Shown one piece after another: positions 31,924-36,855 of a stretch of DNA of 64,000 bases. Position numbers and translations under genes: made by a program. The notes below the pieces were generated by a model. That model was not told where the DNA came from. It searched no databases and saw only the letters and a program-made list of their open reading frames with translations. Within the stretch, counting starts at the first letter, position 1. Each line of letters begins with the position of its first letter. Source of the DNA: Crossiella cryophila (lineage in GTDB: Bacteria; Actinomycetota; Actinomycetes; Mycobacteriales; Pseudonocardiaceae); contig NZ_JACHMH010000001.1 in NCBI RefSeq assembly GCF_014204915.1, forward strand, positions 6,101,501-6,165,500, in the 5' to 3' direction.

Positions 31924-34218
31924 TCATTGGTAGGACGGTGGCGCGGCGTCGGGGGTGATTGCCCAGTTCGTGTCGGGGGTGGCGCGCAGGCGGAAGTCGA
32001 GGTGGCCGCCGGTGCGCACGAGGTGTTGGGGTAGCCAGGTGCGGGCCCAGTTCTCGCCGTTGAGGCGGAGCTGGGTGGTGTAGGGGCGGGCGGCGCCCGC
32101 GCCGGGGGCGGTGATGTGGAGTTCGCCCGCGTTGGGTGGGCGGATCTGGATGGCGGGGAACAGTGGGGTGTGCACGGACAGGTCGGCGGTGCCGGGGGTG
32201 ACCGGGTAGAGGCCGAGGGCGGACCAGACGTACCAGGAGGACTGGGCGCCGAGGTCGTCGTTGCCGGGCAGGCCGTCGGGGGTGGGGGCGAAGAGTTCGC
32301 TCTGGATGCGGCGGATGACGGCCTGGCTCTTCCAGGGCTGACCGACGTAGTTGTAGAGCCAGGGGGTGGAGAAGTCGACCTCGTTGCCGGACCACTGGTA
32401 GGGCTCGTTGGGGCCGACGTTGACCTTGGTGAAGAACTCGTCCATCAGCGGCTGGGCCTTGGCCTTGCCGCCGAGGGCGGTGATGAGTCCGGCGATGTTG
32501 TGCGGGACGAACCAGCGGTACTGGGCGGCGTTGCCCTCCTCGAAGCCGTCCTGGCCGAACTGGCCGGGTGGGGGTGGCACGAAGCCGGGTCCGGGCGGGA
32601 ACTGGCCCTTGCTGTCCTTGGGGCGCAGGTAGCCGGTGTTGGGGTCGAACAGGTTGCGCCAGTACTCGCCGCGTTTGGCGTAGGTGGCGGCGGTGGCGGG
32701 GTCGCCGAGGGTGCGGGCGAAGCGGGAGATGGTGAAGTCGTCGACGGCGTATTCGAGGGTCTGGGAGGCGCCTTTGCGGACGTGGCCGACCAGGGCGCGG
32801 TCGTTGGGGACGTAGCCGAGTTTCTGGTAGTCCTCGATGCCCTGGCGTTCGATGTAGCCCCACTGGACGGGTTCGGCCTTGGTGGCGCCTTTGAGCATGT
32901 ATTTCAGGGCGGTGCGGGTGTCGAAGCCGGTCGCGCCGTAGGCGTGCAGGTTGACCAGGAGCGGGACGCTGTTGTCGCCGTTCATCACGCTGGTGTAGCC
33001 GTTGGCCATGGGCCAGCGGGGCAGCCAGCCGCCCTGGACGGCGGCGAGCACGAGGCTTTGGGCCATGTCACTGGCGCGGTCGGGGTAGAGCCAGCCGTGC
33101 AGTGGGGCCAGGCTGCGGTAGGTGTCCCAGTCGGAGAAGTTGGCGTAGTGGGTGCGGCCGGGTTCGACCTGGTGGATCTGGCTGTCGAAGCCGGGGTAGC
33201 GGCCGTCGAGGTCGTTGAAGGTGTTGGGGTGGATCAGGGAGTGGTAGAGGGCGGTGTAGAAGGTGGTGCGGTGGGCTGGGGTGCCGCCGCCGATGCGGAT
33301 GCGGCCGAGGTGTTCGCGCCACTGGGCGCGGGTGGCGGCGCGGACGGGGTCGGGGTGCCAGCCGGGGATCTCGGCCAGGTTGGCGCGGGCGCCGTCGGCG
33401 CTGACGTAGGAGAGGGCGACCTTGGCGCGTAGCTGGCGGTTCTGGCTGGTGTCGAAGGTGAGGTAGGCGCCGGATTTCGGGTGGTCCGCGCTGGTGCCGC
33501 CGGGGGTGACGGTGCTGCCGTCCCAGGTGCCGTGGGCGGTGAAGGGGCGGTCGAACTTCAGGGCGAAGTGCACGGTGTACTTGTTGCCGCTCTCGCCGCA
33601 GAAGCGGCCGGTGGTGGCGGAGCCGGTGATCTCGTCGGGGGCGCTGATCCGCACGGTGGCTGCGCTGTTGCCTGCCAGGCTGGCGCCGGTTTTGATCAGG
33701 ACCTGGGCGGTGGCGCCCTCGGGGTAGGTGAAGGTGCCCAGTCCGGCGCGGGTGCTGGCGGTGAGTTCGGCGCGGATCTTGGAGTCCTCGAGGGTGACGC
33801 CGTAGTGGGCGACCTCGGCGCGTTCGGTGCGGTGGGAGAACTTCTCGGTGCGGTTCCACGGGGCCGGGCCGATCTCGCCGGTGACCGGGAGGATCGGGAT
33901 GTCGCCGAAGGCGCTGCAGCCGACGGAGGCGTGGGTGAGGCTGAAGCCGCGGATCGGGCCGAGGTGGTAGTTGTAGCCGGCGTAGTTGCCGTTGTCCGGG
34001 CTCCACTGGATCATCCCGAAGGGGGCGGTGGGGCCGGGGAAGGTGTTGATCTCGCCGACGACCGGGCCGCCCTTGCCGGTGCCGATCATGGGGTCGACGT
34101 ACTGGGTGGGGTCGGCGATGAGGGTGTCGTCGGTGGTCGCGGCGCCGGGGATGGCGGTGCCCAGCAGGGTGATGGCGGCGAGTGCGCCGATGACAGCGCG
34201 ACGGTTGCGAGATCTCAC
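31924..34218 (-). CDS. Secreted GH92 alpha-mannosidase
   Basis: 764 residues with a signal peptide (RRAVIGALAAITLLGTAIPG, cleavage near GAATT). GH92 features run in order: YVDPMIGTGKGGPVVGEINT, FPGPTAPFGMIQWSPDN, FSLTHASVGCSAFGDIP, then the catalytic half with HYANFSDWDTYRSLAPLHGW, WPMANGYTSVMNGDNS, FEEGNAAQYRWFVPHN and LPGNDDLGAQSSWYVWSALG. GH92 enzymes are calcium-dependent exo-alpha-mannosidases, often alpha-1,2. A LacI-type operator lies 18 bp upstream of the start, which fits induction by mannosides. The length is normal for the family. Confidence 0.93.
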   Translation of the reverse strand: MRSRNRRAVIGALAAITLLGTAIPGAATTDDTLIADPTQYVDPMIGTGKGGPVVGEINTFPGPTAPFGMIQWSPDNGNYAGYNYHLGPIRGFSLTHASVGCSAFGDIPILPVTGEIGPAPWNRTEKFSHRTERAEVAHYGVTLEDSKIRAELTASTRAGLGTFTYPEGATAQVLIKTGASLAGNSAATVRISAPDEITGSATTGRFCGESGNKYTVHFALKFDRPFTAHGTWDGSTVTPGGTSADHPKSGAYLTFDTSQNRQLRAKVALSYVSADGARANLAEIPGWHPDPVRAATRAQWREHLGRIRIGGGTPAHRTTFYTALYHSLIHPNTFNDLDGRYPGFDSQIHQVEPGRTHYANFSDWDTYRSLAPLHGWLYPDRASDMAQSLVLAAVQGGWLPRWPMANGYTSVMNGDNSVPLLVNLHAYGATGFDTRTALKYMLKGATKAEPVQWGYIERQGIEDYQKLGYVPNDRALVGHVRKGASQTLEYAVDDFTISRFARTLGDPATAATYAKRGEYWRNLFDPNTGYLRPKDSKGQFPPGPGFVPPPPGQFGQDGFEEGNAAQYRWFVPHNIAGLITALGGKAKAQPLMDEFFTKVNVGPNEPYQWSGNEVDFSTPWLYNYVGQPWKSQAVIRRIQSELFAPTPDGLPGNDDLGAQSSWYVWSALGLYPVTPGTADLSVHTPLFPAIQIRPPNAGELHITAPGAGAARPYTTQLRLNGENWARTWLPQHLVRTGGHLDFRLRATPDTNWAITPDAAPPSYQ

Positions 34219-34252: not shown

Positions 34253-34399
34253 TCCGGTGCGAGGATAAGAATGGCGCGCCGGGGACGTAACGGACAAGCG
34301 TCGAACGGGTGGTTGGCCGCACCACCCATCGGGAGTCTTCCGCCTGGCAGGGGCACGAACTCAGACTTGCCCGTGCTCATCGAGGGAGAAGGGGCGCCG

Positions 34400-35107
34400 G
34401 TGCCGCCGACCCGCGCTCAGGACCAGCCGACGGCGGTGGTCACGGGCGCTTCCCGGGGCATCGGCGCGCGGATCGCCGCCGCTCTGGGGGACAGTCACCG
34501 GCTGGTGCTGGGTGGCCGGGGATCGCCCGCGCTGACCCGGCTGGCGCGGGAGTTGCCGGACGCGCAGGCGTGGCCGGTGAACCTGGCCGATCCACGCGCG
34601 CTGCACGTGCCGCCAGGGATCGAACGGCTGGACGCGCTGATCCACAACGCCGGGGTGCTGGCCACCGGGCGGATCGATGAGTGCGACGGCGGGCTGTGGC
34701 GGCGGACCTTCGAGGTCAACGTGTTCGCCGTGGTCGAGCTGACCCGGCTGCTGCTCCCGGCCTTGCGCAAGGCGGGCGGGCATGTGGTGCTGATCAACTC
34801 CACCGCGGGGTTGCAGGCCAACGCGGCCCGCGGGGCGTACTCGGCGAGCAAGTACGCGTTGCGGGCCTTCGCCGACTCGCTGCGTGCGGAGGAGCCGCGG
34901 TTGCGGGTGACCACGGTGTTCCTGGGGCGGGTGGCCACCGACATGCAGCGGGACGTGTGCGCGGTGGAGGGGTTGCGGTATCAGCCGGAGCGTTACCTCT
35001 CCCCCGCCACCGTGGCCGAGACCGTGCGCGCGGTGCTGGCCGCACCGCGGGAGGCCTGTGCGACCGAGCTGGTGCTGCGGCCGGGGGCTACCCGGGGAAG
35101 CGACTGA
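34400..35107 (+). CDS. SDR-family oxidoreductase
   Basis: 235 residues from GTG 34400, preceded by AGGGAGAAGGGG. Cofactor motif TAVVTGASRGIGARIAAALG, then HRLVLGGRG, which suggests NADP. ALIHNAGVLATGRID holds the conserved N-A-G, the catalytic Ser is in LINSTAGLQ, and YSASKYALRAF carries Tyr and Lys. The enzyme should therefore be active. It is short for classical SDRs. The 3-prime end overlaps the convergent phosphatase gene by 20 bp. The substrate is unknown. Confidence 0.88.
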   Translation: MPPTRAQDQPTAVVTGASRGIGARIAAALGDSHRLVLGGRGSPALTRLARELPDAQAWPVNLADPRALHVPPGIERLDALIHNAGVLATGRIDECDGGLWRRTFEVNVFAVVELTRLLLPALRKAGGHVVLINSTAGLQANAARGAYSASKYALRAFADSLRAEEPRLRVTTVFLGRVATDMQRDVCAVEGLRYQPERYLSPATVAETVRAVLAAPREACATELVLRPGATRGSD

Positions 35108-35516
35108 CCCAGCGCTTCTGCCAGGGGGTTTCCACCGCGTGCTTGTTGTGGTGGGCCCGTGCCCAGGCCACCGCCTCGGTGGGTGGCACGCCGGCCAGGA
35201 TGGCCAGGCAGGCGATGACGGTGCCGGTGCGGCCGACGCCGCCGTTGCAGGCGACCTCCACCCGCTGTCCGGAGCGGGCTGCGGCGTGCAGGGCGGTGAT
35301 CCGGCGGATGGCCTCGGCGTGGTCGCGGGGCAGCCGGAAGTCGGGCCACTCCAGCCAGTGCCGGGTCCAGGTCAGGGAGTCGTCGTGGCGGGCGCGCAGG
35401 CGGGGGCTGCCCAGGTAGAGGCCGAAATCGGGTTGTGGGCCCTCGGGGATGGGGTGGCGCAGGCCCCGGCCGCGCACGACCGCTCCGTCGGGCAGGGTGA
35501 TCGCTCCGGTCAACAT
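35088..35516 (-). CDS. Protein-tyrosine-phosphatase-like protein
   Basis: 142 residues from ATG 35514-35516. The P-loop VEVACNGGVGRTGTVIACLA is the C-x5-R signature of dual-specificity/PTEN-like phosphatases, although the His before the Cys is Ala. A general-acid Asp is probably in WPDFRLP (WPD loop). Both points suggest an active Cys phosphatase, possibly on protein or phosphoinositide substrates. No signal sequence is present. The last 20 bp overlap the convergent SDR gene. Confidence 0.85.
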   Translation of the reverse strand: MLTGAITLPDGAVVRGRGLRHPIPEGPQPDFGLYLGSPRLRARHDDSLTWTRHWLEWPDFRLPRDHAEAIRRITALHAAARSGQRVEVACNGGVGRTGTVIACLAILAGVPPTEAVAWARAHHNKHAVETPWQKRWVSRFPG

Positions 35517-35546
35517 GATCAAACCCTAGCCGGGGCGGAAACTCCG

Positions 35547-35706
35547 TCGACCGGGTTTCGCTCAGGGTTGTAGCCTGCCGCTCGTGCGCAGCCCCGAGGC
35601 TTCCAGACGGTAGCCACCGGTCCCCCGGTGGCGTGCCTCTTCACGGCCACCGGCCGGACCGCGGTCGATCACCCTTGTCGATCCACTGTGGTTGCGGAGT
35701 CCTGCT
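35547..35706 (+). promoter_or_regulatory. Attenuator-like leader of the Cmx-type exporter
   Basis: A promoter TCGACC (35547-35552) and TAGCCT (35571-35576), 18 bp apart, put the transcript start at or next to GTG 35584. A perfect 8-bp hairpin GCCACCGG/CCGGTGGC (35613-35632) begins at the leader stop codon. A second GCCACCGG at 35646-35653 can pair with the same CCGGTGGC, so two alternative hairpins exclude each other. Confidence 0.65.
35584..35613 (+). CDS. 9-residue leader peptide of Cmx-type exporter
   Basis: GTG 35584 to TAG 35611-35613 codes MRSPEASRR. The promoter -10 ends 7 bp before the GTG, so the ORF is probably translated from a leaderless transcript, common in actinomycetes. Its stop codon overlaps the base of a hairpin. 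A ribosome stalled by a drug on this ORF would change which hairpin forms. It is too short for homology. Confidence 0.6.
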   Translation: MRSPEASRR

Positions 35707-36855
35707 GTGCCTGTTGTGTTGTATTTGCTCGCCCTCGCCGTGTTCGCGCAGGGCACTTCGGAGTTCATGTTGTCCGGCCTGCTGCCGGACCTGGCCGCTG
35801 ATCTGCACGTCAGTATCCCGGCCGCGGGTGCGCTGACCTCGGCCTTCGCCGCCGGGATGATCGTGGGCGCGCCGCTGATGGCGATCCTGAGCCTGCGCTG
35901 GCCGCCCCGGCACGCGCTGCTGGCCTTCCTGTCGGTGTTCCTGGTGGTGCACGTGCTGGGTGCGCTGACCACGAGTTATCCGGTGCTGCTGGCCACCAGG
36001 GTGGTGGCGGCGCTGGCCAACGCCGGGTTCCTGGCGGTGGCCCTTGCCACCGCGGCCGCTCTGGTGGCGGCCGACGCCAAGGGCCGGGCGACCGCGGTGC
36101 TGCTGGGCGGGGTGACCCTGGCCTGTGTGGCGGGGGTGCCGGCGGGGGCGTTGCTGGGTCAGGCGTGGGGGTGGCGGTCGGCGTTCTGGGCGGTGGCCCT
36201 GGTCTCCGCGCCCGCGCTGGTGGCGATCCTGCGCTGGGTTCCGGCGGGCCGGGCCGAGGACGCGCCGGGGGTGCGTGGTGAGCTGCGGGCGTTGCGGCGG
36301 CCGCGGCTGGCACTGGTGTTGCTGCTGGGTGCGCTGGTCAACGGCGCGACGTTCTGCACGTTCACCTATCTGGCGCCGATGGTCACCGAGGTGGCCGGGA
36401 TCGGGGCGGACTGGGTGCCCGCGGTGCTGGCGCTGTTCGGGATCGGCTCCTTCCTGGGGGTGAGCCTGGGTGGGCGGATCGCGGATTCCCGGCCGCGGCT
36501 GGTGCTGGCCGGGGGCGGGGTGGCACTGGTGTGCGGGTGGACGCTGTTCGCGCTGACCGCGGGTGCGCCGGTGGTCGCGCTGGTCCTGGTGCTGGTGCAG
36601 GGGATGTTGTCCTTCGCGGTGGGCGCCACGTTGATCTCCCAGGCGCTGTACGCGGCCGTCGGTGCGCCGCGGCTGGGTGGGGCGGGGGCGACGGCGGCGT
36701 TCAACGTCGGCGCGGCGCTGGGTCCGTGGGCCGGTGGGCTGGCCATCGCGGCCGGGTACGGGTACCGGGCGCCGCTGTGGGTCAGCGCCGGGCTGGCCGG
36801 GGCGGCGTTGCTGGTGGGGCTGGCGGCTCACCGGGTGGCGGTCTCGGAGCGGTAG
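35707..36855 (+). CDS. Cmx/CmlR-family chloramphenicol-type MFS exporter
   Basis: 382 residues from GTG 35707 (site GGAG, 7 nt). It has about 12 hydrophobic helices. The start PVVLYLLALAVFAQGTSEFM then LSGLLPDLAADLHVSIPAAG is closely like Cmx/CmlR chloramphenicol exporters, as is ATRVVAALANAGFLAVALAT. The motif at the loop, SLRWPPRHALLA, is the usual MFS loop 2-3. The role is inferred: proton-driven efflux of chloramphenicol or a related drug. Expression is probably induced through the leader ORF and alternative hairpins. The 3-prime end overlaps the flavin reductase gene by 28 bp. Confidence 0.85.
   Translation: MPVVLYLLALAVFAQGTSEFMLSGLLPDLAADLHVSIPAAGALTSAFAAGMIVGAPLMAILSLRWPPRHALLAFLSVFLVVHVLGALTTSYPVLLATRVVAALANAGFLAVALATAAALVAADAKGRATAVLLGGVTLACVAGVPAGALLGQAWGWRSAFWAVALVSAPALVAILRWVPAGRAEDAPGVRGELRALRRPRLALVLLLGALVNGATFCTFTYLAPMVTEVAGIGADWVPAVLALFGIGSFLGVSLGGRIADSRPRLVLAGGGVALVCGWTLFALTAGAPVVALVLVLVQGMLSFAVGATLISQALYAAVGAPRLGGAGATAAFNVGAALGPWAGGLAIAAGYGYRAPLWVSAGLAGAALLVGLAAHRVAVSER

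Follow-up and report, generated by a model that had tools for sequence, protein, structure and literature searches.

We propose that a chloramphenicol-responsive attenuator controls the Cmx-type exporter of Crossiella cryophila, a reading to which we assign a probability of roughly 0.7 and which draws on sequence comparison, RNA folding and published rules of drug-dependent stalling. From these we infer that a translating ribosome stalls on a short leader peptide, that the stall switches the pairing of the RNA downstream, that the pump is induced as a result, and that control is mainly translational. The locus lies in a 64,000-nucleotide stretch of C. cryophila DNA (the window), and its features are collected in Table 1. 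The original prediction had placed there a promoter TCGACC-N18-TAGCCT, a GTG at 35584 that opens a peptide MRSPEASRR, a hairpin at the stop codon of this peptide, and a second GCCACCGG at 35646, and each of these elements was found where it had been put. Four further elements emerged from the present comparison of sequences: a predicted pairing between the leader and the ribosome-binding site (RBS) of the exporter gene, a promoter that looks WblC/WhiB7-like, the apparent presence of the leader across the family including mobile cmx genes, and candidate leaders of the same kind before ABC-F and Cfr-like genes.

Table 1 Features of the leader and exporter in the window, and related leaders before ABC-F genes
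Feature	Position	Strand	Basis
Box resembling the WblC/WhiB7 type, GAAACT, 3 bp 5' of the -35 element	35538-35543	+	consensus GAAAWY, one mismatch
-35 element TCGACC	35547-35552	+	WblC consensus TKGMNN; relatives mostly TGGACN
-10 element TAGCCT, 18 nt after the -35 element and 7 nt before the leader start	35571-35576	+	sequence
Putative leaderless leader ORF GTG...TAG, MRSPEASRR, 9 codons	35584-35613	+	conservation, synonymous bias
Leader segment predicted to pair with the exporter RBS/start region 35694-35710	35586-35604	+	minimum-free-energy fold
Hairpin arm 1, GCCACCGG, first base is the G of the leader stop TAG	35613-35620	+	sequence
Hairpin arm 2, CCGGTGGC, common to both alternative pairings	35625-35632	+	sequence
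Arm 3, CACGGCCACCGG, alternative partner of arm 2	35642-35653	+	sequence, recurrence
Exporter RBS GCGGAG (35694-35699) and start codon GTG (35707-35709)	35694-35709	+	sequence
Cmx/CmrA-family chloramphenicol efflux MFS transporter, 382 aa	35707-36855	+	NF033135
ABC-F leader loci L153, L154, L156-L160, L162	200-510 nt upstream of ABC-F match		endings EVDR/EIDR, CCRCCG hairpin

The exporter gene and its surroundings

The exporter scores 530.6 bits (E 2.1e-159) against NF033135, the NCBIfam model for Cmx/CmrA, whose curated cut-off is 400, which bears out its earlier description as chloramphenicol-type. Its nearest relatives in a homologue search are from Crossiella, and the genome around it comprises 10.06 Mb. 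The RBS of the gene lies in a TGCGGAG context that is kept in many relatives. Divergent from the exporter is a small ORF (35088-35522, minus strand) whose product carries a CNGGVGRTG motif and resembles a protein tyrosine phosphatase; a search of NCBIfam returned no match for it. The other neighbours, a GH92-family glycosyl hydrolase (31924-34218, minus strand) and an SDR oxidoreductase (34271-35107, plus strand), have no evident link to the exporter. Inspection of the regions upstream of exporter paralogues in the same genome revealed no SPEASR-type leader, and elsewhere in this genome leader-like matches are weak, with E about 0.02 or worse.

Conservation of the leader points to selection on a peptide

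Comparison with other Cmx-like genes, which the original prediction had put forward, covered 80 related exporter loci from Streptomyces, Nonomuraea, Microtetraspora, Amycolatopsis, Kibdelosporangium, Rhodococcus and others, and a leader of the form M-x-[S]-P-E-[A/S]-[S/D/E/N]-R is kept in 78 of them. The Glu of this motif is replaced by Lys in two Rhodococcus loci and by Asp in one locus; the two loci outside the 78 are L014, which has a degenerate leader, and L055, in which none was found. The distance from leader to exporter gene ranges from 89 to 505 nt. Nine residues, with the stop codon at the hairpin, are found in 47 of the 78 leaders, and the remaining 31 run to 19-28 residues and read through the hairpin. 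Single-base codon differences from the consensus, counted over 53 distinct leader cores, are synonymous in 79 cases and non-synonymous in 10, against an expectation of 16 and 47; because the loci are phylogenetically related, these counts overstate independence and the p-value of the synonymous bias is overstated. The comparison nevertheless suggests that selection acts on the leader peptide. An Rfam search with seven leader loci matched no family, and the peptide strings occur in none of the papers of the library searched.

The hairpin and the AGA at codon 8 are very highly conserved at the nucleotide level, as might be expected if the conserved stretch were a site in DNA or RNA at which a protein binds, with an incidental reading frame and no translation. 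We consider this highly improbable, since differences across codons 2-8 are overwhelmingly synonymous, ATG and GTG interchange as start codons from locus to locus, codons 6 and 7 change jointly (Ala-Ser to Ser-Asp and the reverse), and every locus has its start codon at a set position behind the -10 box.

The promoter position suggests leaderless translation

WblC promoters follow the consensus GAAAWY, 3 bp, TKGMNN, 16-19 bp, TANNNT (PMC7157823), from which the promoter in the window, GAAACT-CCG-TCGACC-18-TAGCCT, departs at one position of its first element and at one of its second. Relatives usually have an A-rich box, 3 bp, a TGGAC-like -35 element and an 18-nt spacer, and a TKGM -35 element at 17-19 nt is found in 54 of the 80. 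By these measures the leader promoter resembles the WblC/WhiB7 type; S. coelicolor cmlR2 is an entry in the listed WblC regulon. A scan of the window leader for the sigma-70 consensus returned no promoter, as is to be expected of actinobacterial promoters.

A TANNNT box lies 6-8 nt 5' of the start codon in all 80 leaders and at none of 79 control positions. Transcripts from S. coelicolor WblC promoters start 7-8 bp past the -10 box (PMC7157823), and with the spacing observed here the transcript should therefore begin at the leader start codon or within 1-2 bases of it. The position of the promoter is thus in keeping with the earlier proposal that the leader ORF is translated leaderless, a mode of initiation that appears probable throughout the family.

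Codons 6-8 form a predicted stall site

Codon 6 of the leader is Ala in 68 and Ser in 10 of the 78 leaders, and in the 80-leader set Asp at codon 7 accompanies Ser6 in 9 of 11 cases but Ala6 in only 2 of 69. Penultimate Ala gives the strongest inhibition by chloramphenicol and Ser or Thr a weaker one, with an Asp at the P site acting as a potentiator (PMC11832420). Codons 6-7 would accordingly constitute a chloramphenicol-type stall motif matching the published rule, and the pairing of the weaker stall residue, Ser6, with the potentiating Asp7 implies that codon 7 occupies the P site during the stall. In the C. cryophila leader, the P site would then hold codon 7 (Ser, 35602-35604) and the A site the AGA of codon 8 (35605-35607). 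Drug-dependent stalling on the peptide, as the original prediction envisaged, is made plausible by the synonymous bias together with this motif.

AGA stands at codon 8 in 75 of the 78 leaders, and the exporter genes of the set use it for only 0.5% of their arginines. In three relatives of mobile cmx (L090, L147 and L149; Micrococcus, Microbacterium and Brachybacterium) PESDT replaces PESDR, and Arg is thus not indispensable at this codon; in L108 and L110 codon 8 is CGC instead of AGA, and the stop codon follows directly. The rarity of AGA would also suit a leader that senses translation stress in general, through slow AGA decoding, many antibiotics or amino-acid shortage, and not phenicols as such; WblC-type promoters respond to many drugs (PMC7157823), and related ABC-F leaders have Val or Ile as the penultimate residue. 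We think a general sensor of this sort quite unlikely, given that the pattern of Ala or Ser-Asp fits chloramphenicol specifically and that the gene under control encodes a phenicol exporter.

A conserved hairpin has a candidate competing arm

The second copy of GCCACCGG, at 35646-35653, can pair with arm 2, and the duplex of arms 2 and 3 can be extended such that CCGGTGGC-GTG pairs with CAC-G-GCCACCGG. The predicted fold of the leader RNA is more stable than those of its dinucleotide shuffles (z -3.2). Cmx leaders alone contain one double change in the hairpin of arms 1 and 2, too little variation to be informative, and for this reason the set was widened to ABC-F, Cfr-like and divergent leaders; three pairs of the hairpin then covary, with 7 double-change cells, as against 0 of 500 shuffles. 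A motif complementary to arm 2, and hence arm-3-like, lies downstream in 50 of the 80 leaders where shuffles expect 5.7, and it is present too in 26 of 80 intragenic stretches of matched length. Copies like arm 3 number 39, compared with 7 like arm 2. A permutation test for cognate pairing of arms 2 and 3 was not significant (p 0.21) and had little power, arm 2 being nearly invariant. The covariation in the first hairpin and the recurrence of arm 3 are consistent with the switch in pairing that had been predicted, in which a stalled ribosome is expected to cover arm 1 in part.

Leader-RBS complementarity favours translational control

In the fold of the window leader, nucleotides 3-21 are paired with the RBS and start codon of the exporter gene, and masking of nucleotides 1-35 raises the mean unpaired probability of the RBS region from 0.19 in the full RNA to 0.46, values that refer to free RNA with the stalled ribosome mimicked by simple masking. 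Across the 80 loci, masking of the leader increases the unpaired probability of the RBS in 41 and decreases it in 12. Leader nucleotides 21-30, around the predicted stall site, show stronger pairing with the RBS of their own exporter gene than with those of other loci (z -4.4, p<1/5000, 45 non-redundant loci), and pairing is individually strong in only 15 of the 80 leaders. In the window the duplex between nucleotides 10-31 and the RBS is no better than shuffles (z +1.4), though the full fold pairs the RBS with leader bases. Cognate complementarity between leader and RBS thus appears to hold in part of the family and, as computed here, would favour translational over transcriptional attenuation.

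In ribosome-mediated transcriptional attenuation, the hairpin of arms 1 and 2, or a later one, would terminate transcription unless a stalled ribosome blocked it, an arrangement that has been proposed for Streptomyces wblC and ABC-F genes. The T content just after the first hairpin is raised (36% versus 21%), with at least four T in eight in 25 of the 80 loci; attenuation of transcription has been described for Streptomyces are5sc and wblC (PMC12421871, PMC7157823); and some of the leaderless attenuators of S. lividans have no clear U-tract (PMC8079986). However, a terminator scan of the window leader found no terminator-like site, that is, no GC-rich hairpin followed by a U-tract. Moreover, in the 31 loci whose peptides cross the hairpin an unstalled ribosome would disrupt it, and so block termination when no drug is present, and the complementarity between leader and RBS points to translation. 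We therefore regard transcriptional attenuation as unlikely, with a small but real chance of being correct, and prefer translational attenuation.

Related leaders precede mobile cmx, ABC-F and Cfr-like genes

A leader, MSSPESDRSGVVGHTASPLNH, whose peptide begins MSSPESDR, stands before cmx of C. striatum pTP10, of C. glutamicum pXZ10145.1 and of a P. aeruginosa plasmid; that of a Rhodococcus fascians plasmid is MTSPESDRAGAHGHAVSPMKL. The hairpin of mobile cmx occupies the same place and has an entirely different sequence. The RBS/start region of cmx, TCGGAGTACTCGATG, finds its complement in the leader bases TCGAGTCCCGA, and masking of the leader raises the accessibility of the RBS from 0.28 to 0.55.

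A covariance model of the leader, run over 296 actinomycete genomes, gave strong matches before Cmx genes and weaker ones before other resistance genes, and a class-wide pattern search returned 14 genomes, compared with 1 for the reversed control, with mostly Cmx and ABC-F leaders among the matches. At eight ABC-F loci the apparently leaderless leaders read MEIEVDR[I/A/L], MELIEVDR[A/L], MLIEEVDRI or MLTPEIDRA, and all end with AGA or AGG, one codon, and a TAG that overlaps a GCCRCC hairpin. The leader is present in 7 of 8 loci at an identity of at least 71% and in one at 61%, and is absent from more distant loci. The ABC-F proteins have their best match among ribosomal-protection ABC-F models, but below the curated cut-off. 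In L113, L117, L119 and related ABC-F leaders the penultimate residue is Val or Ile and not Ala or Ser, and the drug sensed is for that reason probably other than chloramphenicol.

A gene for a Cfr-like 23S rRNA methyltransferase (350 bits, below the cut-off of its model) is preceded by a leader of the same apparently leaderless kind, MSTPIADRA, with the same hairpin. This gene (L109/L150; minus strand, leader at the centre of the locus) lies directly downstream of a Cmx homologue, so that two candidate phenicol-resistance genes adjoin. No Cfr-like relatives were found in viral contigs.

Their shared form suggests that the Cmx, ABC-F and Cfr-like leaders have a common descent. A wider claim would be that one portable class of leaderless attenuator serves unrelated actinobacterial resistance genes (Cmx with SPEASR/SPESDR, Cfr-like with MSTPIADRA, ABC-F with MEIEVDRL/MLTPEIDRA), in which the ending is fixed (AGA/AGG, one codon, UAG in a CCRCCG hairpin) and the residues before the Arg are retuned to the drug; we put this forward tentatively, at somewhat less than even odds.

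Discussion

According to the model that we favour, a WblC/WhiB7-type promoter would give a transcript whose 5' end lies at the leader start codon or within 1-2 bases of it, and ribosomes would initiate on the leaderless nine-codon ORF. When no drug is present, the ribosome would complete the leader and depart, the hairpin of arms 1 and 2 would form, and the RBS and start codon of the exporter gene would be paired, largely with leader codons, so that little pump is made. In the presence of chloramphenicol, the ribosome would halt once codon 7 has entered the P site, with the rare AGA of codon 8 next to it in the A site, the penultimate residue being Ala6 (or, in relatives, Ser6 together with Asp7). 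The stalled ribosome would mask the leader codons and arm 1, which would remove the strand that sequesters the RBS and leave arm 2 to pair with arm 3, and the RBS would open.

Chloramphenicol-induced attenuation before cat genes is classical. In the cat86/catA-type systems of Gram-positive bacteria, a ribosome that chloramphenicol halts on a short leader frees the RBS downstream (reviewed in PMC8876359), as we propose here, but the resistance gene, the peptide, the mode of starting and the position of the hairpin differ. The leader of cmlA reportedly ends NADK and so also has Ala, Asp and then a basic residue. As the original prediction noted, attenuation is established for chloramphenicol exporters with other leader peptides: that of cmlA is induced by chloramphenicol through a leader of nine residues, and cmlA1 of class 1 integrons (Tn1696) shares with the C. 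cryophila locus a nine-codon leader and an MFS chloramphenicol exporter, and has alternative stem-loops and sequestration of the RBS of the kind predicted here (PMC8876359). The cmlA leader differs in having a Shine-Dalgarno start and in belonging to a proteobacterial cassette, whereas the Crossiella leader is predicted to be leaderless, encodes an unrelated peptide, would carry the anti-RBS within its own codons and has a WblC-like promoter; CmlA itself is only remotely related to the Crossiella exporter (22 bits).

In wblC/whiB7 and in are5sc, tiaA and lmrC, a short actinobacterial uORF likewise senses ribosome-targeting antibiotics (PMC7157823, PMC12421871). The tiaA and are5sc uORFs have ribosome-binding sites and drugs of the lincosamide type stall ribosomes at their start codon, whereas the Crossiella leader would be leaderless and its predicted chloramphenicol stall is internal. 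The leuL, trpL and ilvL attenuators of S. lividans are similar in having a leaderless leader peptide followed by hairpins, often with the U-tract missing, but sense aminoacyl-tRNA and control biosynthesis or tRNA-ligase genes (PMC8079986). No leader of the SPEASR type appears in the passages of that paper that were consulted.

We regard the novelty of the proposed Cmx leader attenuator as provisional, since a 1992 paper on Rhodococcus fascians cmr and a 2009 paper on S. coelicolor cmlR1/cmlR2 may describe inducibility.

For inducible phenicol resistance in actinobacteria, the model names a particular peptide and the codon at which it should stall, a scope that includes the mobile cmx of Corynebacterium and Pseudomonas plasmids (L087, L144), and the leader would be a natural chloramphenicol sensor based on leaderless initiation. 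Should the leaders of the ABC-F and Cfr-like genes prove to be of this class too, comparison of the peptides would show how a single RNA device is adapted to one ribosome-targeting drug or another, and searches with the leader motif could reveal resistance genes that are not yet annotated.
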